This document shows, one piece after another, positions 17,340-51,535 of a stretch of DNA of 64,000 bases. The stretch is from the NCBI GenBank assembly GCA_938074605.1, contig CALJEI010000007.1, forward strand, positions 1 through 64,000, written 5' to 3'. Within the stretch, counting starts at the first letter, position 1. Every line of letters begins with the position of its first letter. Source of the DNA: an uncultured Ignisphaera sp. GTDB taxonomy: Archaea > Thermoproteota > Thermoprotei_A > Sulfolobales > Ignisphaeraceae. A model generated the notes under the pieces. It was not told the DNA's origin. It saw only the letters and a program-made list of their open reading frames with translations, and made no database searches. The position numbers and the translations under genes were made by a program.

Positions 17340-18047
17340 TTACTGTAGCTTTAGATAATGCTTTTTTAACATTTTTATTGCACCTCCTATAATTCCCGGT
17401 ATTCTAGATCTATAGAATCTTAGACTTCTCTTTATCTCAATCGCTATTGCTTCTACTTCTGGCGGTCTACCAAATTCTGCTATAAAGGCACCACCTGAAA
17501 AGGGGTGGTCTATAGCAACAGAAAAGCCTTGTTCTTTAAAGTAATTAGCCACCATTTTTACAAGTTCTTTTGATGCTGTTCTATATCCTCTGGATGAAAT
17601 GCAGATATCTGGCCATTTCTTTATATTCTTCATCCCATGTATATCTATAACTATTTTTATTCCCCCTTCTCTAATAACCTCCTCTACTCTTTTCCAAAAT
17701 GGTGTTAAAATAGCATAGGATTTATTTAAATTATAGTCTTGCATGTAAATACCCTCTATTCTATCAATTTTACTTAATGTAGGTAGAATAGCCCATAGCT
17801 CTTCAGCAACAGCAGTTTTATAGGCTATCTCCCACGTATATACATCTACAGCTGAATGATATGGTACTATATTCTTTAATTCATGATATGTATAGAATGT
17901 CTTAAGATATCCACACATTTTTAGACATTTTCTTAAAATTTGAACTACAAGTCTATACCCATCAGATCCAAAGCCATGTACTGCTGTTACTAGTAGTGGG
18001 TATCTCCCCCTAACCTCAATAAAACCCTCAATACCATCAAAATCCAT
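17340..18047 (-). CDS. N-formylglutamate amidohydrolase-like protein
   Basis: About 235 residues. The pattern fits the N-formylglutamate amidohydrolase superfamily: VTAVHGFG near the N-terminus (metal histidine), VIDIHG in the centre and HPFSGGAFI with the later AIEIKRSLR at the C-terminus. Family members are zinc hydrolases of N-acyl amino acids, and some archaeal members have unknown substrates. I start at 18047 because GAGGTGA is placed six bases upstream of that ATG; an ATG-like reading from 18071 has no such support. No histidine-degradation gene is near, so the family name should not be read as function. Confidence 0.7.
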   Translation of the reverse strand: MDFDGIEGFIEVRGRYPLLVTAVHGFGSDGYRLVVQILRKCLKMCGYLKTFYTYHELKNIVPYHSAVDVYTWEIAYKTAVAEELWAILPTLSKIDRIEGIYMQDYNLNKSYAILTPFWKRVEEVIREGGIKIVIDIHGMKNIKKWPDICISSRGYRTASKELVKMVANYFKEQGFSVAIDHPFSGGAFIAEFGRPPEVEAIAIEIKRSLRFYRSRIPGIIGGAIKMLKKHYLKLQ

Positions 18048-18212
18048 AGTAGTCACCTCATAAACTAACATCTTTATCTATATGGTAAGAGGATTCAATT
18101 TTAAACAGATCTATAAACTTTAAATAAATTGCTAAACATTTGTATCGCTACATATTTTTGAGGAGGAAATACTATTATTCTTACTAACTTTGCTACATAG
18201 CTTTAGATATTT

Positions 18213-19451
18213 TCATTGGTTGATTTCTTCTATAATCACTTTAGAGAGTTTCTCTATACCTATCCCTATTTCAGTAATTGTTGGATATGTAAAGTTTAGT
18301 CTCATTGTATCAAAACCGTTTTCATTGTGATAAAATCCTTTGCCAGGCACATATATAACACCTCTACTAAATGCCTTTTGTAAAAGCTTTTCTGTATCTA
18401 TTTCAACATTGAGTTTAATCCATATAAACATACCGCCTATAGGCTTTGTCCACCAGGCGGACTCTATAATATGCTCTTCTATAGCTTTAAGCATTGCATC
18501 TCTCTTTAATCTATATATACTTTTAATTCTAGGTATATTTCTCTCAACAATCCCCTCCCTCAATACAATAGCAGCAATGTATTGGGTAAAAGCTGGTGTA
18601 TGGAGATCTGCTATCTGCTTAAATGGCTCAAGACTCTCTATAATCTCTCTAGGAGCAACTATATGGCCAAGTCTCATCCCTGGGGTTAGAACCTTACTTA
18701 AAGACCCTACATATATAACCCTTCCACTGTAGTCTATTGAAAGTAGAGGAGGTACATATTTATCTTCATCAAATATGATAAGCCCGTAGGCATCATCTTC
18801 AATTATAAGAAAGTCGTATTCTTCAGCAAGCTCAAGTAGATGCTTTCTTCTATCTATAGATAGCGTTACCCCCGAGGGGTTTTGGGCTGTTGGAACTGTA
18901 TAAAGTAGATTGACTTTTTCACCTTTAGATCTAAGTTCTCTAAGTTTTTCCTCAAGAATATCAGTCTTCATACCATCATCATCTATAGGTATGCCAATAA
19001 ATCTTGGTCTTCTTGCTCTAAATGCATTTAAAGCTGCTATATATGTAGGTTCTTCAACAGCTATATAGCTACCCTCATCTAAATACATTCTAGCTATAAT
19101 GTCTATAGCCTGTTGCGATCCTGTGGTAACAATAACATTATCCATACTAGTTTTAATTCCTCTAACCCTATATAGAAAATCTATAAGCTCTTTTATATAC
19201 ATCGATATACCTCTACTAGGCATATACTGAAGTACATCATATCCATAGCTATCCAAAACCTCTACAGCTATTCTCTTAAGATCATCTATAGGAAATGTAG
19301 ATGGATCTGGCAAACCACCTGCAAAACTAATCACATTTCTATCCTCTAAAAATGTAAGTGAATACCTAGCCACTATAGATGCTACATAATCACCGTCTTT
19401 TGATCTAAATCTTCTATAGTCGATCATAACTTTATCCACAAAAATCTTCAT
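18213..19451 (-). CDS. PLP-dependent class I/II aminotransferase (LysN/2-aminoadipate type)
   Basis: About 412 residues, fold type I aminotransferase. Seen are ISFAGGLPDPSTFP near residue 40, the cofactor-binding TTGSQQAID, TVPTAQNPSG, IEDDAYG and the Schiff-base lysine in YVGSLSKVLTPGMRLGH. The C-terminal arginine that binds the substrate carboxylate appears in MRLNFTYP. This subgroup includes 2-aminoadipate and multi-substrate aminotransferases such as LysN. No regulator domain is fused. The substrate cannot be read from sequence. Confidence 0.88.
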   Translation of the reverse strand: MKIFVDKVMIDYRRFRSKDGDYVASIVARYSLTFLEDRNVISFAGGLPDPSTFPIDDLKRIAVEVLDSYGYDVLQYMPSRGISMYIKELIDFLYRVRGIKTSMDNVIVTTGSQQAIDIIARMYLDEGSYIAVEEPTYIAALNAFRARRPRFIGIPIDDDGMKTDILEEKLRELRSKGEKVNLLYTVPTAQNPSGVTLSIDRRKHLLELAEEYDFLIIEDDAYGLIIFDEDKYVPPLLSIDYSGRVIYVGSLSKVLTPGMRLGHIVAPREIIESLEPFKQIADLHTPAFTQYIAAIVLREGIVERNIPRIKSIYRLKRDAMLKAIEEHIIESAWWTKPIGGMFIWIKLNVEIDTEKLLQKAFSRGVIYVPGKGFYHNENGFDTMRLNFTYPTITEIGIGIEKLSKVIIEEINQ

Positions 19452-19720: not shown

Positions 19721-21052
19721 CTAGCTACTACTATTTGGTGATATGTGTATGGTGTGTGTAGAGCATGAGATGCAGGGGTCATAGCTTCTTATTAGATACA
19801 ATACCCTTTTCTTTATATATTCAACGTTATTTAATTGTCTCTCTATTAGTGTTTCTACCAATTCTTTAATGTCTTGCTCCATTGCTGCTATATTCATGGT
19901 TGTTGGTGTAATGATGTTTGCATATGTTATTAACCCATCTCCACTACATCTATAGTGATGTATTAAAAGTCCTCTTGGTGCTTCAACAATTCCTATACCC
20001 TCGCCTTCTTCCACCATGGTTTTTGCCCTTGGTGTAGCTGGGGTATTTTGTAGCTCATCTAAAACCTCTATGATTTTCTCAAGACAATAAGCTACCTCAA
20101 TGAGTCTAGCTAAATTGTAGAGTAGTGGGTGTTGAGGCCATTTACTTAACACTGCTTTAAAGTCTTTGTAGAATTCTCCACTAACTCCATGTTGTATTTC
20201 CCGCAATGTGGTGAGTCTAGAAAGAGGGCCAACTCTAAATATTTTTTTAGCACCATTTATAGTTATGTACACATTCTTAGAGTAGCTATACTCTATAGGT
20301 TCCTCAACTATAAACTCCATATATCTGCTGGGCTGAAATAGCAGTTCAGCATTGTTATCATCTATAATCTTTACCATACCGTCATAAAACTCTATCTCTT
20401 TACTGCCTACTAATACTGCCATTGACTTTCTTCTATATACTACATCAGTATTGCTTTCAATGAAGCTTTCTATTCTCTCTCTCAGTTCCCCATATAATTC
20501 ACTTAGAATCTTCAATCCATTTTTAGCCTCAGTCCTCATTACATCTATATCTTCCCTCAATGGAAGTTTCAATACACCACCTGGAACAGCATTAAATGGA
20601 TGTACATGTCTCCCCCCACTAATATCAACTATTCGTAAAACACATTTTCGTAGCACTATGAACATTTTAAATAGCTGTGTAGAATATATGTTACGAACCT
20701 CTTCACCATGCTCTATATCTGGATATAGTAGAAAGCCTAATTGTAGTAGGTGGCTTTGAGCTACACCACCTAGCCCCATAACCTCTCTTACCATCCTTGA
20801 AGCTCTAGGAATTTCTACACCAAGTGCAGCTTCTACTGCCTTAACTGAAGCAAGATGGTGTGCAACTGGACATACCCCACAGATACGTGGAACTATATTT
20901 GGTGCTTCCTCAATAGGTCTTCCAATAAGAATTTTCTCAAAACCTCTAAAGCCTTCTGCTCTAAGCTGAACCCTTGCGCCACCCTCCCCAATATCTATAT
21001 ATGCATAGAGATGACCCTCTATACGGGTTACAGGTTTAATCTCTACTAACAT
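19721..21052 (-). CDS. mvhA: NiFe hydrogenase large subunit, MvhA-like (group 3c type)
   Basis: About 443 residues with both nickel-binding cysteine pairs: RICGVCP near residue 57 and DPCISCSTH near the C-terminus. Nine residues follow that histidine and should be removed by a maturation protease. Last gene of the hdrC-hdrB-hdrA-mvhD-mvhG-mvhA operon. The start at 21052 overlaps the end of mvhG and is preceded by GAGAGGAT; a longer start at 21076 is possible. In methanogens MvhADG feeds H2 electrons to HdrABC for flavin-based bifurcation. Here the same set occurs with no methanogenesis genes in view. Direction of electron flow is unknown. Confidence 0.9.
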   Translation of the reverse strand: MLVEIKPVTRIEGHLYAYIDIGEGGARVQLRAEGFRGFEKILIGRPIEEAPNIVPRICGVCPVAHHLASVKAVEAALGVEIPRASRMVREVMGLGGVAQSHLLQLGFLLYPDIEHGEEVRNIYSTQLFKMFIVLRKCVLRIVDISGGRHVHPFNAVPGGVLKLPLREDIDVMRTEAKNGLKILSELYGELRERIESFIESNTDVVYRRKSMAVLVGSKEIEFYDGMVKIIDDNNAELLFQPSRYMEFIVEEPIEYSYSKNVYITINGAKKIFRVGPLSRLTTLREIQHGVSGEFYKDFKAVLSKWPQHPLLYNLARLIEVAYCLEKIIEVLDELQNTPATPRAKTMVEEGEGIGIVEAPRGLLIHHYRCSGDGLITYANIITPTTMNIAAMEQDIKELVETLIERQLNNVEYIKKRVLYLIRSYDPCISCSTHTIHISPNSSS

Positions 21053-21944
21053 CTTTTTCAATCCTCTCTCCACCAACCCTTCTATGATATGGAATTGTTG
21101 AATAGGGTAGTGTAAACATTGATAAAAGGCCTATGGGGTCAGGTATAGCTTTAAGAATTTCTTCTGGTGGTTCAACTGAGTAGAATATACTAAGAGCATC
21201 AATCATATCAGCTGCTTGATCTTTGGAATTAGGTAGAGGGCCCATACAGCCTATACAAGGTGCTCCTTTACTAGGGCATAGAGCTTTACAGCCAGCTAGT
21301 GTTGCTGGACCCATACATAGAATACCCTGCTTTAGAAAACATGTATTTATATCAATATCGTTTAGTGCTAAAAGTTTTCTTCTAGGCTTCTTTAAAGGTT
21401 TTTTATCATCTCTATTAAGTGGACATTCATTACATACACTAACTTTGGGTAATACAAATTCTTTTCCATAGATTAGCGAGTCTAGCAAAGTCTCTATTAA
21501 TGGTTCAGGTGGTGGACAACCTGGAACCATATAGTCAATTTTTACAATGGTGTTAAGTGGTACTATAAATCTTGTGAGTTTAGATCTAGAGTTTGTTGTA
21601 GAGGGTTTTAGAGGGCTGAATATCTCTCTAAGTAATTCTTCTCTCTCAATTGTATTGGCTAGCCCTGGTATTCCTCCAAAACATGCACAGCTACCAAAAG
21701 CAACTATTTTTAAAGCTTTTCTACTAGCTTCTTTAATAATTGCAATATCCTCATAAGTTCTAATTGAACCTGTAACAAACAATATATCTACATTCTCTAG
21801 CTCTTCTCTATCCACTAAAAGTGTTGAATAAGCAATTCTCACCATGCCACTGCCTATAAGCCCACAGAATCTCTCCATAGAGGCTATAGCAACTTCACAA
21901 CCAGCACAATAGGCTAGACTAACAATACCAATGTTTATAGTCAT
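21036..21944 (-). CDS. mvhG: NiFe hydrogenase small subunit, MvhG-like
   Basis: About 302 residues. The proximal-cluster motif CAGCEVA near residue 13, FGSCACFGGIPGL, the VPGCPPPEPLIE block and the later CMGPATLAGCKALCPSKGAPCIGCMGP supply cysteines for three [4Fe-4S] clusters. No twin-arginine signal is present, so it is cytosolic like MvhG. It overlaps mvhD by four bases and mvhA by about 17 bases, in keeping with a tightly coupled operon. Confidence 0.92.
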   Translation of the reverse strand: MTINIGIVSLAYCAGCEVAIASMERFCGLIGSGMVRIAYSTLLVDREELENVDILFVTGSIRTYEDIAIIKEASRKALKIVAFGSCACFGGIPGLANTIEREELLREIFSPLKPSTTNSRSKLTRFIVPLNTIVKIDYMVPGCPPPEPLIETLLDSLIYGKEFVLPKVSVCNECPLNRDDKKPLKKPRRKLLALNDIDINTCFLKQGILCMGPATLAGCKALCPSKGAPCIGCMGPLPNSKDQAADMIDALSIFYSVEPPEEILKAIPDPIGLLSMFTLPYSTIPYHRRVGGERIEKDVSRD

Positions 21945-22381
21945 TTAACCTCTACCTCACGGTACTCTATAAATCTTAGCTTTGGTAGTCTAGTAGCATT
22001 TTCAACAATCTCTTTAGCTATTAAGGCAAATCTATCAGCTTCACCAGCAGCTATCCACTCAAGTCTAAATCTCTCATCCTCAAAACCAAGCTGCTTTAGA
22101 TATGCCTTTAGTAGAGTAGCCCGCACTCTAGCTTTATAATTGCCATTTATAAAGTGGCAATCATATGGTGGATGACAGCCACTCCACAATACTGCATCAA
22201 AGCCGCTGCGAAGAGCTTTAAGCACATAGTAGCTTTTAAACATACCGCTACAGGGTAGTCTAACTATATAGATTTGTGGAGGATACTGAAGCTTACTAAC
22301 ACCAGCTGTTTCAGCAGCAGCATATGCACAATATGTACATGCAAAGACTAAAACTCTTGGCTCTACAGACATTATACTCAC
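21941..22381 (-). CDS. mvhD: MvhD-like [2Fe-2S] electron-transfer subunit
   Basis: About 146 residues. Cysteine motifs are FACTYCAYAAA at the N-terminus, RLPCSGMF and SGCHPPYDCHF, the MvhD/HdrA-partner pattern. In methanogens this protein joins the hydrogenase to HdrA. Its position between hdrA and mvhG, with four-base overlaps on both sides, fits that bridge role exactly. Confidence 0.92.
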   Translation of the reverse strand: MSIMSVEPRVLVFACTYCAYAAAETAGVSKLQYPPQIYIVRLPCSGMFKSYYVLKALRSGFDAVLWSGCHPPYDCHFINGNYKARVRATLLKAYLKQLGFEDERFRLEWIAAGEADRFALIAKEIVENATRLPKLRFIEYREVEVK

Positions 22382-24351
22382 CTTAGTATCTCAGCTACCA
22401 TCTCTTCTACTTGCTTCAGCCCTAGATTTAGAACCTCTATTGCTCTACTTGGGCAAGAACCTACACAAGCACCACACCCCTTACATAAAGCTTCATCAAC
22501 ATAAGCCACATTCCTTCCACCCCTTTCAACAATTTTTATAGCATTGTATTCACAAACAGTAAGACAAATTCTACAGCCACTACACAACTCTTCATCAACT
22601 TTTGCTATATAGGGTTGTGTTTCTATATAGCCTCTTGAAAGTAGTGTTATCACCTTACTAGCAGCAGCACTAGCTTGAGCCACAGTCTCCGGTATATCTT
22701 TTGGTCCAGCAGCTGCCCCACAGATATAAACACCATCAACAGCAGTTTCAACAGGGTTTAACTTTGGATGTAGCTCTAGTAGAAATCCACTACTGGGTAG
22801 AACTCCCAACTTCAATATATTTTTTACAGCCTCTGTACCACGTCCTGCAACTATACCAACCTCAAGAACTACAAAATCAACCTCAATTGATATTTCACGA
22901 CCTAGCGCTGGATCATATGCTCTAACAGATAGTGTTCCATTTGGATTGCCTCTAACCTCACTAGCTCTACCCTTAACTATATAGACCTTTGGTAGCTGCC
23001 TTATCCTTCTATAGAATTCCTCAAAGCCTTTTCCAGAAGCTCTAATCTCATCAGCAAATATAAAGACTTCTGCATCAGGTAAAAGATGCTTAACATACCA
23101 TGTATGTTTTAAGCTAGCCATACATCCAACTCTACAGCAGTAGGGTAGATGTCTTTCATCACGTGAACCAACACAATTTACTATAGCTATACGCCTAGGC
23201 TCTTTGCCAAGTCCAGGTATAATAAGTCTTCCCTCTGTAGGTCCATAGGAGCTAGCTAAACGTTCTAGCTGTAGCCCTGTAACAACATTGGGGTATTTGC
23301 TATAGCCATACTCATAGATGTTTGAAGCATTGTATTCTTCAAAACCTGTTGCAACTACTATAGCACCAACCCTAACCTCTATAACTCCACCCCTTTGGCT
23401 AAAATCTATAGCACCAACTGGACATAGTTTTTCACATATTCTACATACCCCCTTCTGAATATATAGACATGTATTTGGATCTATAACAGGAATACGTGGA
23501 ACTGCCTGTGGATATGGTATATAGATGGCTTTCCTATATGAAAGTCCGGCATTGAATTCATCAATAGCTTTACCAGGGCATTTAGCAATACAAATAAGAC
23601 ATCCTTTACAAAGATCTTCTCTTACATACCTTGGTTTTCTAAGTATTTTAACTAAAAACTCCCCCACTCTACCCTCTATAGACAATACCTCACTATATGT
23701 AAATAGCTTAATGTTTGGATGTTGAGCAACAGCATTCATTAAGGGGCCTAGAATACATATTGAGCAATCAAGTGTGGGAAAGGTTTTATCAAGTTTAGCC
23801 ATATTACCCCCAATACTAGGTTCTTTTTCAACCAAATACACAGTAAAACCAGCATCAGCAATATCTAGAGCAGCCCTTATGCCAGCTATACCACCTCCTA
23901 TAACAAGAGCTGCTGGAATAATGGGGAGTTTCTTACGCTCCAACGGCTTATTGTTTCGAACCTTTGTAATAGCTGCTTTAATAATTCTAATAGCTTTTTC
24001 AGTAGCCTTCTCCTTCTCTCCTTCGTGTACCCATGAACACAACTCCCTTATATTAACCATCTCAAGTAGATATGGATTTAATTCAGCTCTACGAAGAGCT
24101 TCTTGAAATAACGGCTCATGCGTTCTAAAAGAACATGCTGCTACAACAACTCTATCTACACCACTAGACTTTATATTGTTCACCATACTCTCTACACCAT
24201 CTGTAGAACAGAGAAATCTATGGTCCCAGACTACAGCATCTGGTATTCTTCTAATCTCTTTAGCAACTCTCTCAATATCTATAACACCAGCTATATTAGT
24301 GCCACAGTGACATAGAAATACAGCTATCTTAGCTTTACTCAAGCTACTCAC
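22378..24351 (-). CDS. hdrA: Heterodisulfide reductase subunit A (FAD, iron-sulfur)
   Basis: About 657 residues, canonical HdrA length. In order: an N-terminal CHCG and CSTDG cysteine region, the FAD motif VIGGGIAGIRAALDIA near residue 155, four-cysteine ferredoxin motifs (CKGCLICIAKCP and CRICEKLCP), a mid-domain CVGSRDE with CCRVGCMASLKH, and a C-terminal double [4Fe-4S] domain with CSGCRICLTVC and CKGCGACVGSCP. HdrA is the bifurcating flavin subunit. In methanogens it splits H2 electrons between ferredoxin and the disulfide CoM-S-S-CoB. The low-potential acceptor here may be ferredoxin. The disulfide partner in a sugar-degrading archaeon is not known. Confidence 0.95.
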   Translation of the reverse strand: MSSLSKAKIAVFLCHCGTNIAGVIDIERVAKEIRRIPDAVVWDHRFLCSTDGVESMVNNIKSSGVDRVVVAACSFRTHEPLFQEALRRAELNPYLLEMVNIRELCSWVHEGEKEKATEKAIRIIKAAITKVRNNKPLERKKLPIIPAALVIGGGIAGIRAALDIADAGFTVYLVEKEPSIGGNMAKLDKTFPTLDCSICILGPLMNAVAQHPNIKLFTYSEVLSIEGRVGEFLVKILRKPRYVREDLCKGCLICIAKCPGKAIDEFNAGLSYRKAIYIPYPQAVPRIPVIDPNTCLYIQKGVCRICEKLCPVGAIDFSQRGGVIEVRVGAIVVATGFEEYNASNIYEYGYSKYPNVVTGLQLERLASSYGPTEGRLIIPGLGKEPRRIAIVNCVGSRDERHLPYCCRVGCMASLKHTWYVKHLLPDAEVFIFADEIRASGKGFEEFYRRIRQLPKVYIVKGRASEVRGNPNGTLSVRAYDPALGREISIEVDFVVLEVGIVAGRGTEAVKNILKLGVLPSSGFLLELHPKLNPVETAVDGVYICGAAAGPKDIPETVAQASAAASKVITLLSRGYIETQPYIAKVDEELCSGCRICLTVCEYNAIKIVERGGRNVAYVDEALCKGCGACVGSCPSRAIEVLNLGLKQVEEMVAEILR

Positions 24352-25226
24352 CTTTTTACAATATATGGCAGAATTCTATCTATTGGAGAAAGATTAAGGT
24401 TTAGTGCAACATCACTTTCACTTAATCCTATTTGTAAACCAATTAATTGAGATAGAAGCATTACTGATAGCTTTGGCTCATCGCTAAACATTTGCATTAT
24501 AGCCTCCTGCCTAGAGTCAAGCATTTCAAAACAATATGGACATGTTGTTACAAGTAGACTAAATCCCCATCTAGAGGTACCACTAATTTTATTGTATGCT
24601 AACCTCATAGCAAGATTTGGGTTTGTGGCTAGTAGTACAGCTCCACAACAGTCTAGCCTCTCTGGATAGTCTCTAGTTCTAAAGCCTAGAGCTTCAATAA
24701 CTCTCTCCATTTTGCTAGGATTCATAGGGTTGTCAAAAGATGGTGTAGTTGATGGTCTTAAAGCGTGGCAGCCATAGTGTGTAGCCACAACTATATCGCT
24801 GTACTGTCTCCTCTTAGCATTCTCTAGCATCTTAATACCAATAATATCATGGAAGAATTCGATTGGGTGTATAATCCTCGGTATTTCTTTAAGCTCAAGG
24901 CCTTCCTCCTTTAGATGGCTTTTAATACCCTCTAATAATTTTCTATCCTCTTTAAGCCTATAGACAGTTTCTCTAAGCATTAAATAACATCCATTACATA
25001 GAGTAAGAATACCAATGGTTTCAGGATTATGTAGAGAGGCAAGAAGTCTAGCTGTTAAATACAGTGATGTTGATGGATATATGCTTCGAAATGCAAATCC
25101 ACAGCAATTTATATTTCTAGGGACTATAGGCTCTATATTGAGATACTGGAGAACTTTAAGTATAGATACTTCAACAGCAATTTGTTTCACTAAAGTGAAG
25201 CACCCAGTAAAAATTACTACTTTCAT
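24348..25226 (-). CDS. hdrB: Heterodisulfide reductase subunit B (double CCG domain)
   Basis: About 292 residues. Two CCG repeats are intact: first GCFTL, NCCGFAF and LCNGCY; second GCHALRP, DCCGAVL and CPYCFEML. In the methanogen enzyme these hold the pair of noncubane [4Fe-4S] clusters that cleave the heterodisulfide. Keeping all cysteines suggests a working disulfide-reducing site here. It overlaps hdrC and hdrA by four bases each. Confidence 0.94.
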   Translation of the reverse strand: MKVVIFTGCFTLVKQIAVEVSILKVLQYLNIEPIVPRNINCCGFAFRSIYPSTSLYLTARLLASLHNPETIGILTLCNGCYLMLRETVYRLKEDRKLLEGIKSHLKEEGLELKEIPRIIHPIEFFHDIIGIKMLENAKRRQYSDIVVATHYGCHALRPSTTPSFDNPMNPSKMERVIEALGFRTRDYPERLDCCGAVLLATNPNLAMRLAYNKISGTSRWGFSLLVTTCPYCFEMLDSRQEAIMQMFSDEPKLSVMLLSQLIGLQIGLSESDVALNLNLSPIDRILPYIVKR

Positions 25227-25717
25227 TTGCTATCCAAACCTCTTAACATATTTAGTATCTCTTTAAATTTCTCATTACCTATAGGTTCTGGAAGGGGGGC
25301 TAGACCTAGTAGCTCTCTAATATCCTCAGTTGTATAAAAATCTCCATCTTTAGACACTATAGTTTGGCTTGTAAATGCAAGATATGTATTCATAGTATTT
25401 TCAGCCATATTTAGATATATCTTGGGTGCAAGACCCCTCTTTGCAGCTTCATGCTGTAGATATTCAATAATATCGTTTAGAGGTACTTTCTGTGGACAAA
25501 TTTCAACACATTTAAGGCATCGAGCACAAGACCATATACTAGAGCCTCCTATAATCTCCTCATATACATCGCGAAACTCTTTAAATATAGAACTGAGATA
25601 GGCTTTTACAAATAGATTTGGTCGAAGGCCAGCTGGGCAAACACCTATACACTTAAAACAAGTGTAGCATGCTCTAATAGTCTCTAGGGAGATCTCTAGC
25701 AAGATTTCAACCACCAT
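25223..25717 (-). CDS. hdrC: Heterodisulfide reductase subunit C (two [4Fe-4S] clusters)
   Basis: About 164 residues. Two ferredoxin-like motifs CYTCFKCIGVCP near residue 17 and CARCLKCVEICP near residue 63 carry electrons between HdrA and HdrB. It is the first gene of the operon. The ATG at 25717 follows GGTGAGAT. Upstream is a short perfect palindrome between the TATA box and the expected start of transcription. Confidence 0.93.
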   Translation of the reverse strand: MVVEILLEISLETIRACYTCFKCIGVCPAGLRPNLFVKAYLSSIFKEFRDVYEEIIGGSSIWSCARCLKCVEICPQKVPLNDIIEYLQHEAAKRGLAPKIYLNMAENTMNTYLAFTSQTIVSKDGDFYTTEDIRELLGLAPLPEPIGNEKFKEILNMLRGLDSK

Positions 25718-47553: not shown

Positions 47554-48852
47554 CTAGACATAGCTGCATTTATTGATGTATTTTATTTTGAGAAAGTGTG
47601 TTGAGCATGATATGCATGGATCGTAGTTTCTAACTATTTGTTCTGCTAACCGTTGCGCATCTATTGGATTTAATGTTACTAGCTTACTACTTAGTGCTAG
47701 AAGGTCTTGCTCTATGCTCGCTAGGTTCTGCGATGTTGGTGGTATTATGTTGGCGTTTACTACATATCCTTCATCATTTATTTCGTATCTATGGTACAGC
47801 ATGCCTCTAGGGGCTTCCGTTATTGCTGCGCCTATGCCTCTCTTCACCACACCCTTAACGTAGGGTTGTTGAGGCTCTCTATAACTGCTGATGAGCTCTT
47901 CTAGCTCTAGGACTGAATGATATACTTCAGCTGCTCTAGCTATTATTGACTGAAAACTGTTGTATAGTGGTGCTCCATAACCGTGAGATTCTATAACACT
48001 ACGAACCTCAGGGTCTAGAAGATCGTAATTGTTGTTATATCTTGCAAGAGGGCCTACGATGTAGCAACCTTTACCCTTAAGTTTATACCTAAGCGACGTC
48101 GAATACCTCGTTTGTTCTACGACAAGATTATCTTCAAATTCATCCTCAGATATGTTGAGACCTTCGCTAGATACTACTCTGCCCTTAAGTATGGGATACT
48201 CGCCTTCACCCCTAAGCGATACGAACTCAGCCTTCATCTTAATGTCGGGTATAGGTAGCTTGAGCACCCACTCTAGCAACTGCCTAGCATACTCTTTCAC
48301 ATAGCTTAACTCTCCTAGCAATGGAAGTAGTTCTTCTCTTCTAATAATTCTATAGAAACCGCCAATCCTGCAGGAAATTGGATGCTCAGAGCGACCACCT
48401 ATAACTCTAATCACTTGATTACCCCACTGCTTTAACTTCATACCTCTCTTAACTATCTCTGAATAATCTTTAGCCATACTTAAAACGGATTCATATCCTA
48501 GAAAGTCTGGTGCGTGTAGCATGAGGATGTGGAGCGTATGACTCTTAATCCACTCACCAAGATATAATATTCGCCTAAGCCTCTCTATCTCCTCAGGTAC
48601 TTCAATATCCAATATCTTCTCTAAAGCCCTACTAGAACTCATTATGTATGCTATAGGGCATATACCGCAGATTCTAGCAGTGATGTCGGGCACTTCATAA
48701 TACTTCCTACTTCTCAAGAATGCTTCAAAGAATCTTGGAGCCTCAAATATGCCTAACTCAACCCTAGAAATGCTACCATCATCTAACTCAATGAATAAAC
48801 TCCCCTCCCCCTCAACCCTAGCTAAGTAATCTACCTTAATAACTTTACTCAT
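47554..48852 (-). CDS. hydA: NiFe hydrogenase large subunit, group 3b (sulfhydrogenase) type
   Basis: About 432 residues. Nickel ligands are in ARICGICPIAY near residue 62 and DPCISCSTH near the end, with 13 residues after the histidine for removal by a maturation protease. The gene order beta-gamma-small-large on this strand is that of Pyrococcus furiosus soluble hydrogenase I (HydBGDA). The ATG at 48852 overlaps the end of the small-subunit gene by eight bases. The enzyme should be cytosolic and couple NAD(P)H to H2. It is distinct from the MvhA-like subunit at 19.7 kb. Confidence 0.92.
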   Translation of the reverse strand: MSKVIKVDYLARVEGEGSLFIELDDGSISRVELGIFEAPRFFEAFLRSRKYYEVPDITARICGICPIAYIMSSSRALEKILDIEVPEEIERLRRILYLGEWIKSHTLHILMLHAPDFLGYESVLSMAKDYSEIVKRGMKLKQWGNQVIRVIGGRSEHPISCRIGGFYRIIRREELLPLLGELSYVKEYARQLLEWVLKLPIPDIKMKAEFVSLRGEGEYPILKGRVVSSEGLNISEDEFEDNLVVEQTRYSTSLRYKLKGKGCYIVGPLARYNNNYDLLDPEVRSVIESHGYGAPLYNSFQSIIARAAEVYHSVLELEELISSYREPQQPYVKGVVKRGIGAAITEAPRGMLYHRYEINDEGYVVNANIIPPTSQNLASIEQDLLALSSKLVTLNPIDAQRLAEQIVRNYDPCISCSTHFLKIKYINKCSYV

Positions 48853-49612
48853 ACTCTTCAATCACCTTTCTAAACTCTTTAGACCAATTAGTGAATTGCC
48901 TAAGAAGAAGCTTTATCTCATTAAGCTTAACACCTAGCTCTTTAAAACGTGCATTCAAAGCCTCTGGCTTAGGATCTTTCATAGGACCATAACATCCATA
49001 ACAGCTCCTACCATACGAAGGACATAGAGCGCCACAACCCCCCATAGTGATAGGACCTAGACAAGGAACTCCTCTCACAACTAAGATACATACATTTCCC
49101 TTCCTCTTACACTCAAGACAAACGGAGTCGATGAGCAGCGTAGGTATCTTACCCTTAAGTAGCTGTAAAATGAAAGAAAGCAATTGCTCCTTGTTGATCG
49201 GGCAGCCGCGTATCTCGTAATCAACATTAATGTACTTTGAGGGAGGCTCTACATACTTAAGCACTTCTATCCACTCAGGCCTTGGATAAACGTATTGCTT
49301 GTACTCCTCTATGTTGGCCCAGTTGCGAAGAGCCTGTATCCCACCAGAAGTAGCACAAGCGCCTATAGCTACCACAATCTTAGACTCCTCCCTAACTTTC
49401 TTAATAATTTCAACCTCATGCGGTGTCGAAATAGAGCCTTCTACGAAAGCAACATCATAAGGGCCCAAGTCAACAAATCTCCTAGCCTCATAAAACAGGG
49501 CAAAATCTACTAAGCTAGTTAAATCCAGTAGCTCATCCTCTAAATTTAGGAACTGTAATTGGCATCCACCGCAACTAGAGAACTTGTAGATTGCTACCTT
49601 AAGCTTCTTCAT
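48845..49612 (-). CDS. hydD: NiFe hydrogenase small (delta) subunit, group 3b type
   Basis: About 255 residues. The proximal-cluster motif SSCGGCQLQFLN near residue 14, VAIGACATSGGIQ, RGCPINKEQ and CLECKRKGNVC with CLGPITMGGCGALCPSYGRSCYGCYGP bind three iron-sulfur clusters. No export signal. It overlaps the gamma gene by four bases upstream and the large subunit downstream. Confidence 0.92.
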   Translation of the reverse strand: MKKLKVAIYKFSSCGGCQLQFLNLEDELLDLTSLVDFALFYEARRFVDLGPYDVAFVEGSISTPHEVEIIKKVREESKIVVAIGACATSGGIQALRNWANIEEYKQYVYPRPEWIEVLKYVEPPSKYINVDYEIRGCPINKEQLLSFILQLLKGKIPTLLIDSVCLECKRKGNVCILVVRGVPCLGPITMGGCGALCPSYGRSCYGCYGPMKDPKPEALNARFKELGVKLNEIKLLLRQFTNWSKEFRKVIEEYE

Positions 49613-50427
49613 ATTTGATCAACCCAGAAGTACTTACTTATAAACCATAAAGGAAACACAGGGCCGTGCTTGCAAACAAAGTATGGACCCATCTGACAAT
49701 GGCCACACAAACCAACGCCACACTTCATTCTTCTTTCAAGAGATAGGTAAATCTTGTTCATCTTGAATCCTTTCTCAAGCAACTCTTGAGCAGCAGATTT
49801 CATCATCATTTCAGGGCCGCATACGAAGGCATAAGACTTGCTAGGATCTATATTCACGTGTTTTATTAGATTCGTTACAACACCTACGTTGCTTCTCCAA
49901 CTCTCACTAGGCTTATCTACAGTCACATAGAACTCGGTATTAGGGATCGACTTGTAGTAATCATATTCGTAGGTGAAGAGAAGGTCTTCGACTGTTCTAG
50001 TACCATAAAGAATTATTAGCTTGCCGTAGGCACTTCTATTCCTAGCCACCTCTCTTATTACTGGTCTTAAGGGGGGTAGGCCAATTCCACCAGCTATCAA
50101 GACTATGTCTTTACCAACTATAGCATCCATAGGCCATCCAATGCCATAAGGACCTCTAAAACCAATTACGTCGCCCTCCCTAATCAGCTCGAAAGTTTTG
50201 GTAACGGAGCCAACAAATCTAACTGTGTGAGCAACAACTCTAGACTTCTCATCTAAGTCGCTAACGGATATGGGTACTTCGCCGACGCCATGTACGTAAA
50301 GCATGTTAAACTGTCCCGGCTTGGGCGGCTCAACGCCATTAGGCAACTTAACGTAGTACGTCTTAACATTCCGAGTCTCGGTTTTCACATGAGTTATTAA
50401 AGCTTTAAGAGGGATTAAATTAGCCAT
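49609..50427 (-). CDS. hydG: Hydrogenase gamma subunit, FAD/NAD(P)-binding with [2Fe-2S]
   Basis: About 272 residues of the ferredoxin-NADP reductase-like family that serves sulfhydrogenases and dihydroorotate dehydrogenase B. FAD region KPGQFNMLYVHG and VPISVSDLDEK, NAD region IVLIAGGIGLPPLRP, and a C-terminal cluster motif MKCGVGLCGHCQMGPYFVC. It takes electrons between NAD(P)H and the small subunit. The ATG at 50427 (or GTG at 50439) follows the stop of the beta gene closely. A longer open frame upstream overlaps the beta gene and is unlikely to be used. Confidence 0.9.
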   Translation of the reverse strand: MANLIPLKALITHVKTETRNVKTYYVKLPNGVEPPKPGQFNMLYVHGVGEVPISVSDLDEKSRVVAHTVRFVGSVTKTFELIREGDVIGFRGPYGIGWPMDAIVGKDIVLIAGGIGLPPLRPVIREVARNRSAYGKLIILYGTRTVEDLLFTYEYDYYKSIPNTEFYVTVDKPSESWRSNVGVVTNLIKHVNIDPSKSYAFVCGPEMMMKSAAQELLEKGFKMNKIYLSLERRMKCGVGLCGHCQMGPYFVCKHGPVFPLWFISKYFWVDQI

Positions 50428-50441
50428 ATGTTTACTCACTT

Positions 50442-51509
50442 CTAACCGCCCATCAGAATCTTCTTTACTGTTTCCCTCAAGTCTATGCCTGTGGGACACC
50501 AAGTAATACATCTACCACATCCTACACATCCATACGTGCCAAACTGTTTTATCCAGTAGGCAAACTTATGGAGAACAAAATGTCTATACCTAGCCCACAG
50601 GTCAGGCCTAAAATGACCTCCAGCTACTTGACCATAAGTAAAGTTCAGACAGCCATCCCACACCCTAACTCTTTTAGCGGATCCATTAATTAAGGGGACG
50701 TCAAGTATATCAAAACAAAAACAGGTTGGACAGACCATGTTACAGTTTGCACAACCAAGACACTTCTCAGCAACCTCCTTATAAATTTTAGACTCTATAT
50801 GTAACTCAAGTCCCTCAGGTAGCCCATTTAGCTCAAATCCGGACCTGGCTTTCTCACTAGCATTACGCATAACAGTTCTAAATCTCTCGTATGTAGCATC
50901 GTCAATAGGCTCCACCTCAAGCAGGTTAAGTAGTTTTAAACCCAGCTCACTACCAGCCTCTAACACCAACCTATCATTTAGCTTAGTATACGCTAAGTCA
51001 AAAGAATCTCTAGCTCTAGGTCCCGTATTCATAGTACTGCAAAAACATGTACCGCCAGGACTAATACAATTTTCAACTATAAGAACTAGGCTTCTTCTAA
51101 GACTAGTGTAGTATTCATCAACGCCTAGGAGAATCTTGTCAAGCACTTTAATGGAAGCTAAATCACAAGGCTTTAAACCGAAGAACGCAAAATTATGTTT
51201 TTCGTACTCTGGAATACTCACAATCCAATCATTGGAAACCATAAAAAGAGTTAAATTAGGCGGATAAAGAAACCTTTTAGGCGAGTCCGGCCCATGCCTA
51301 TAAAAACTTCCATTAACTAACAAATACCTGCCGGGACTCTGGACATCCTCAACATCTTGAGCAAACTCATCAAAGGAATTTAGCTCCCCAAGCCTTAACA
51401 CTCCATCGACTACTCTATATCCGATAACTACATACCCTAATCTCTTCAACTCGCTAAACAAAGTCCTTAAGCTGTCAGCCTTTCCAACGTAAAGGCCAGT
51501 TAATGACAT
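50442..51509 (-). CDS. hydB: Hydrogenase beta subunit with two [4Fe-4S] clusters
   Basis: About 355 residues of the AsrA/sulfhydrogenase beta family. The C-terminal third holds CLGCANCNMVCPTCFC and CVGCGRCITWCP, two ferredoxin-like clusters. The N-terminal part contains LKPCDLASIKVLDK and CISPGGTCFC. First gene of the operon; ATG at 51509 follows GGTGG by seven bases. In Pyrococcus the complex can also reduce elemental sulfur or polysulfide, so an H2S-forming role is possible. Confidence 0.9.
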   Translation of the reverse strand: MSLTGLYVGKADSLRTLFSELKRLGYVVIGYRVVDGVLRLGELNSFDEFAQDVEDVQSPGRYLLVNGSFYRHGPDSPKRFLYPPNLTLFMVSNDWIVSIPEYEKHNFAFFGLKPCDLASIKVLDKILLGVDEYYTSLRRSLVLIVENCISPGGTCFCSTMNTGPRARDSFDLAYTKLNDRLVLEAGSELGLKLLNLLEVEPIDDATYERFRTVMRNASEKARSGFELNGLPEGLELHIESKIYKEVAEKCLGCANCNMVCPTCFCFDILDVPLINGSAKRVRVWDGCLNFTYGQVAGGHFRPDLWARYRHFVLHKFAYWIKQFGTYGCVGCGRCITWCPTGIDLRETVKKILMGG

Positions 51510-51535
51510 ATAATACCACCAACCTAAAATCAATC

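Follow-up and report, generated by a model that had tools for sequence, protein, structure and literature searches.

Genome analysis of an uncultured representative of the genus Ignisphaera showed the presence of a complete operon for a heterodisulfide reductase (Hdr) joined to a [NiFe]-hydrogenase of the Mvh type. The operon lies on the minus strand of contig C7 of genome G000, a metagenome-assembled genome of 1.63 Mb and 97.8% completeness, and occupies positions 19721–25717 of the window, that is, of the stretch 1–64000 of this contig taken for analysis. Its products would form a soluble, H2-linked complex HdrABC-MvhADG of the bifurcating or confurcating kind in a fermentative Ignisphaera, and the high-potential partner of this complex is probably lipoamide bound to a GcvH-like carrier protein. 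The six genes, in the order HdrC-HdrB-HdrA-MvhD-MvhG-MvhA, are as follows:

25223–25717, minus strand: HdrC, ferredoxin-type subunit with two [4Fe-4S] clusters; TIGR03290, 64.9 bits (under the equivalog cut-off); PDB HdrC, E 5e-14
24348–25226, minus strand: HdrB, catalytic disulfide reductase subunit; PF02754, two copies; PDB HdrB, E 1e-38
22378–24351, minus strand: HdrA, flavin adenine dinucleotide (FAD) subunit, proposed site of bifurcation; NF040770, 775 bits; PDB 8rvu_a, E 1e-197
21941–22381, minus strand: MvhD, [2Fe-2S] protein joining the hydrogenase to HdrA, with five cysteines; PF02662, 1.7e-40; PDB MvhD, E 2e-33
21036–21944, minus strand: MvhG, hydrogenase small subunit; NF045875, 168 bits; PDB MvhG, E 1e-48
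19721–21076, minus strand: MvhA, [NiFe]-hydrogenase large subunit; NF041785, 258 bits; PDB MvhA, E 4e-75

All six open reading frames are intact, and the matches of the subunits to profiles and PDB structures are far beyond chance, which bears out the operon described in an earlier note on this DNA. The cluster cysteines of HdrB and HdrC and both nickel sites of MvhA, also named there, were found, and the cluster-binding cysteines of the operon are complete. The motif CxxCxxCxxxC occurs twice in HdrC; HdrB contains two CCG motifs for noncubane clusters, C-x31-CC-x34-CxxC and C-x39-CC-x34-CxxC; and the nickel ligands of MvhA are represented by RICGVC and DPCISCSTH, that is, by both CxxC motifs. 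Four ferredoxin-type motifs, one of them in the form Cx7CxxCxxxC, are present in HdrA, which aligns with 8rvu_a over its whole length, inserted ferredoxin domain included, and contains the FAD and C-terminal ferredoxin domains. The four-base overlaps reported in the note (ATGA or GTGA) were found at four of the five junctions, but the overlap of MvhG and MvhA is longer: 41 bases if MvhA begins at the listed TTG, and 17 bases if it begins at ATG 21052, the latter being the likely start of MvhA because it fits the homologues better.

The best NCBIfam and PDB matches of MvhA are to proteins of the Vhu/Mvh type, yet they are far under the equivalog cut-off. In the phylogenetic tree MvhA forms a deep branch on the Mvh side, apart from group 3b, together with only the MvhA of Ignisphaera sp. 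SKYB63 (G006, contig JANXEL010000059.1, G006:C56). Since the large subunit is nearest to the Mvh/Vhu type, the enzyme is predicted to be a [NiFe]-hydrogenase of group 3c. SKYB63 is the second of the two operon-bearing genomes among the 11 genomes of Ignisphaera; in it the gene order is kept and the products from HdrC to MvhG are 64–81% identical to those of the window (75% for HdrC). An initial scan of contigs with MvhA as the sole query gave no match.

Genes for the putative partner are located on contig C15, in a cluster encoding LipS1 (scoring over the curated cut-off), LipS2, lipoate-protein ligase, a GcvH-like protein, a LutB/LdhH-type LUD-ferredoxin protein and a LutA-type CCG protein. 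The GcvH-like protein is the only one in the genome; it contains no cysteine and retains the lipoyl lysine in the motif E[ST][AG]KWxG, with the same E, K, W and G in all 12 aligned sequences; it is predicted to be lipoylated. Neither glycine decarboxylase (GcvP) nor the E2 acyltransferase of 2-oxoacid dehydrogenases was found in the genome by searches that were positive in 10 control genomes; a classical user of lipoate was thus not found, the searches being for these two proteins. Participation of GcvH in glycine cleavage or in 2-oxoacid dehydrogenases was therefore rejected for this genome.

Within the genus, the gene of the GcvH-like protein is present in both operon-bearing genomes and in none of the nine others. 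Three genomes, G002, G004 and G011, gave weak and partial matches to PF01597 (37–45 positions, E about 1e-4), which were ascribed to other domains of the biotinyl/lipoyl type rather than to GcvH. The cluster of SKYB63 is syntenic with that of C15 (TrpB, LutA, LutB, GcvH, ligase, LipS2, LipS1 and MetB, 69–82% identical). Next to it come orthologues of an aminotransferase gene (77%) and an N-formylglutamate-hydrolase-like gene (67%), which in the window lie directly downstream of MvhA, at 18213–19451 and 17340–18071.

Direct linkage was found in other lineages. The genome of Brockarchaeota JZ-2.bins.136 (G080) contains the contiguous genes LutA-LutB-GcvH-HdrC-HdrB-HdrA-MvhD-MvhG-MvhA, with the frames of HdrA and MvhA broken in the assembly, and Sulfolobales S1_Bin_MAXBIN_086 contains HdrCBA-MvhDGA-LutA-LutB-GcvH, also contiguous. 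GcvH is followed by HdrCBA in Thermoproteota S9B2_HD70 and adjoins HdrCBA in G262 and G381, while in G275 and G159 HdrABC, GcvH, LipS2, LipS1 and ligase are assembled in a single cluster. GcvH is located near HdrB in Scotarchaeum, Crenarchaeota JZ-1.bin_83 and the Asgard archaea Borrarchaeum and Sifarchaeum. In Borrarchaeum, HdrA-MvhD-MvhG-MvhA-HdrC-HdrB and a GcvH-like gene form one run (L235:4184–11461 and L250:4225–11461); therefore, the lipoyl link extends past Thermoproteota. Among 398 genomes of Thermoproteota, GcvH was detected in 96 of the 98 with HdrB and in 151 of the 300 without it (Fisher p 4e-21, uncorrected for ancestry). Nine of the 22 GcvHs closest to that of Ignisphaera are located within 15 kb of an HdrB, as are 15 of the 150 GcvHs listed, with about 3 expected. 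The operon of the window does lie beside sugar genes, as had been noted (fucose isomerase-like and beta-xylosidase family), but the genes to which it is linked repeatedly in different lineages are those for GcvH-like proteins, LutAB and lipoate assembly.

The catalytic subunit was compared with those of methanogens. The AlphaFold model of HdrB (pLDDT 84, pTM 0.87) is superimposed on the HdrB chains of three methanogen complexes with Z 32–33 and root-mean-square deviation of 2.4–2.5 Å over 278–287 residues. An alignment of four methanogen HdrBs from PDB with 46 HdrBs of Thermoproteota, including that of the window, showed two loops adjoining the cluster cysteines in all four methanogen proteins, CCPAPG at the first cluster and CCGAGGG at the second. 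The HdrB of the window contains neither of them, each loop being two residues shorter, and has arginine in place of the lysine of the methanogen motif HYGCHxLKP. Both loops were found in only 2 of the 46 HdrBs of Thermoproteota. These two proteins are encoded at L205:8512–9402 (G236) and L111:13449–14342 (G233), and the gene in G236 adjoins a GcvH-like gene. In the passages of PMC12350162 consulted on binding of the heterodisulfide of coenzymes M and B (CoM-S-S-CoB), only a 'conserved architecture' is stated and binding residues are not named, so the argument from the loops rests on the alignment.

In the phylogeny of HdrB, which the earlier note had proposed as a check, the methanogen proteins stand apart and that of the window groups with proteins of non-methanogens, joining G080, G381, G262 and G371 with support of 99; its exact position is unsure because of a long branch. 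The mcr search proposed there revealed no mcrA in the whole genome, nor was mcrA found among 30 related genomes, the search being for mcrA. The designation 'methanogen-type' thus holds for the architecture of the complex but not for its catalytic HdrB, and the earlier suggestion that a non-methanogen has an Hdr complex linked to H2 and working by bifurcation or confurcation is supported. The question of which disulfide is used by such organisms is apt because mcrA is absent, HdrB lacks the methanogen loops and HdrB groups with non-methanogens; carrier-bound lipoamide is now a strong candidate. Lateral transfer from a methanogen was rejected, since HdrB groups with non-methanogen HdrBs and the deep branch of MvhA is shared only with SKYB63.

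In the proposed mechanism, MvhAG would exchange electrons with H2, and MvhD would hand them to the flavin of HdrA, which would split or merge electrons between a ferredoxin path and the HdrC/HdrB path. The noncubane clusters of HdrB would contact the carrier and reduce its lipoamide or oxidise its dihydrolipoamide. The cofactor would be assembled by LipS2, LipS1 and the lipoate ligase, and the LutA/LutB-like pair may move electrons between this carrier and a 2-hydroxy acid, e.g., lactate. The H2-forming direction, with dihydrolipoamide and reduced ferredoxin yielding H2, would be expected in an organism that ferments sugars where H2 is low. The textbook potential of lipoamide is −290 mV. That of CoM-S-S-CoB has been revised to −281 mV (PMC12054007), and the bifurcation energies calculated for the two disulfides differ by no more than 2 kJ per 2 H2. 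At 85 °C, 1e-4 bar H2 and a ferredoxin potential of −420 mV the calculated energy is about zero (without temperature correction of the disulfide and ferredoxin potentials), so operation in either direction is feasible.

Several observations weigh against lipoamide as the partner. The Hdr operon lies on contig C7 but the GcvH cluster on C15, several related HdrCBA-MvhDGA loci have no GcvH in the DNA examined around them, the co-occurrence counts ignore shared ancestry, and the genome is a metagenome assembly. Free lipoate was no co-substrate for the HdrABC module of the methylenetetrahydrofolate reductase (MTHFR) complex of an acetogen (PMC9430772), although that complex is a different enzyme and free rather than carrier-bound lipoate was tested there. 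The first two of these observations, together with the lack of a partner gene in the operon itself, would fit a complex whose disulfide is that of a small molecule or of a thioredoxin-like protein (CoA disulfide, polysulfide or protein disulfide), with the lipoate cluster serving LutAB only and merely travelling along; this is rather unlikely, given the contiguous LutAB, GcvH, Hdr and Mvh genes in two separate lineages, the GcvH-Hdr linkage in others, including the Asgard Borrarchaeum, and the exclusive co-occurrence of GcvH and the operon within the genus.

A sulfur system similar to sHdr-LbpA, with sulfane sulfur bound to the lipoyl carrier and with H2 or ferredoxin coupled to sulfur reduction or oxidation, is less probable still. 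A carrier of the LbpA type with genes LipS1, LipS2 and ligase is a hallmark of sHdr (PMC6067878, PMC10332631), an sHdr-like cluster with two HdrBs and the same lipoate genes is present in G159, and a group 3b sulfhydrogenase is encoded inside the window. However, a single HdrB with a hydrogenase partner is found here instead of the C1B1-A-C2B2 set, neither the operon nor C15 was seen to contain a sulfurtransferase gene, and the carrier, unlike bacterial LbpA, has no cysteine. The subunits and gene types match those of the methanogen complex, but a classical CoM-S-S-CoB reductase, either a remnant or a part of methanogenesis or alkane metabolism, is very improbable, considering the lack of the methanogen loops in HdrB, its place outside the methanogen clade and the absence of mcrA here and in the 30 related genomes. 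The patchy distribution of the operon, in 2 of the 11 species of the genus, could be taken as a sign of plain lateral acquisition of decaying or unexpressed genes with no working role; this is hardly credible with six open frames, 64–81% identity, gene order and upstream neighbours retained in a second species, and GC content of the operon inside the range of the window.

Similar to the methanogen complexes (M. thermolithotrophicus 5ODC; M. marburgensis Hdr 8RVU), the complex of Ignisphaera has six subunits, the cofactor motifs, the HdrB fold and H2 as the mid-potential partner; it differs in the absence of methanogenesis, the missing HdrB loops, arginine for lysine and the deep separate branch of MvhA. 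HdrABC-MvhADG of non-methanogens was described for Culexarchaeia (PMC9723716) and for Atabeyarchaeia and Freyarchaeia (PMC11291895), so that this kind of complex is not in itself new; the disulfide of the non-methanogen complex was called unidentified in PMC11291895. A GcvH-bound disulfide was suggested for the membrane Ehe/HdrA2B2C2 cluster of Culexarchaeia (PMC9723716), whereas in Ignisphaera it is a soluble complex of the Mvh type that is linked to LutAB and to LipS1/LipS2/ligase, and glycine decarboxylase and E2 are absent.

Lipoate-binding proteins, mostly encoded alongside LipS1/LipS2, are essential for sulfur oxidation by sHdr (PMC6067878, PMC10332631). Both systems combine an Hdr-like complex with LipS1/LipS2/ligase and a lipoyl carrier of the GcvH type that has the conserved lysine, while Ignisphaera has one HdrB and one HdrC rather than two of each, a hydrogenase partner and no sulfurtransferases noticed in the clusters; the carrier of sHdr-LbpA has two conserved cysteines, which are absent from some archaeal LbpAs, and that of Ignisphaera has none. 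A LutB LUD-ferredoxin protein and a LutA CCG protein are shared with the LutABC/LdhH modules of lactate oxidation (TIGR00273, NF045670; PMC3924224), but LutAB of Ignisphaera adjoins a lipoyl carrier, and the proposed acceptor is lipoamide. The GcvH of the Brockarchaeon was earlier assigned to a glycine pathway (PMC8065059); its genome has two GcvH genes, and either could be meant. In the literature searched, no paper tying LutAB and GcvH to a soluble Mvh-Hdr complex was found; what is new is the link to LutAB, the lack of the usual users of lipoate and the co-occurrence at the level of the genus.

In two genomes of the same family, G012 and G015, a gene for a GcvH-like carrier was found directly upstream of genes for a TfrA-/TfrB-like fumarate reductase (CoM/CoB type), at L170:4723–8394 and L171:4972–8655, and in G016 (L172) GcvH adjoins a similar flavoprotein fragment. 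The GcvH-TfrAB arrangement suggests a putative lipoyl-thiol fumarate reductase. A wider and more tentative proposal is that lipoate held on proteins takes the place of the thiols of CoM and CoB in archaea that do not form methane. The soluble HdrABC-MvhADG, the LutAB-type hydroxy-acid module and TfrAB-type fumarate reductase would then share a dedicated GcvH-like carrier (E[ST]xKWxG), the disulfide of which would serve as a pool of electrons linked to H2 and ferredoxin. Lipoate is already known from 2-oxoacid dehydrogenases, from the cleavage of glycine and from the oxidation of sulfur. If carrier-bound lipoamide is indeed the disulfide, lipoate would gain the role of a bifurcation partner in H2 metabolism, and the disulfide question could be reduced to a simple enzyme assay. 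The question also bears on the priority of methanogen cofactors versus lipoate in archaeal energy metabolism.

Ignisphaera aggregans is a fermentative hyperthermophile (PMC3035270). The upstream fucose isomerase-like and DUF72-like neighbours of the operon are common to the window and SKYB63. The genome contains one copy of HdrB, the second CCG protein being LutA-like. At 47554–51533 of the window, at a distance of 22 kb from the Hdr genes, lies a complete operon for a group 3b hydrogenase of the sulfhydrogenase type (alpha, delta, gamma and beta subunits); one contig of SKYB63 likewise encodes both HdrCBA and a group 3b-like large subunit. Further matches to hydrogenase large subunits were found on contigs C1 and C4.

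A different operon, HdrA-MvhDGA-HdrC-HdrB, with HdrB of a separate clade, was found at L036, L037, L096 and L097 (G001, G005, G160 and G361); at L036 HdrB is lost at the contig end. Genes for fumarase alpha and beta adjoin the operon at L036 and L037, the latter also with malic enzyme and TRAP transporter genes. The fumarase-linked operons of G001 and G005 were rejected as the same system, since HdrB of G005 belongs to a separate clade, HdrC and HdrB follow MvhA, and G005 has no GcvH. GcvH-domain proteins of 197 amino acids, the N-terminus of which resembles a ribbon-helix-helix DNA-binding domain, are encoded at L073:15129–15722 and L075:14933–15526.

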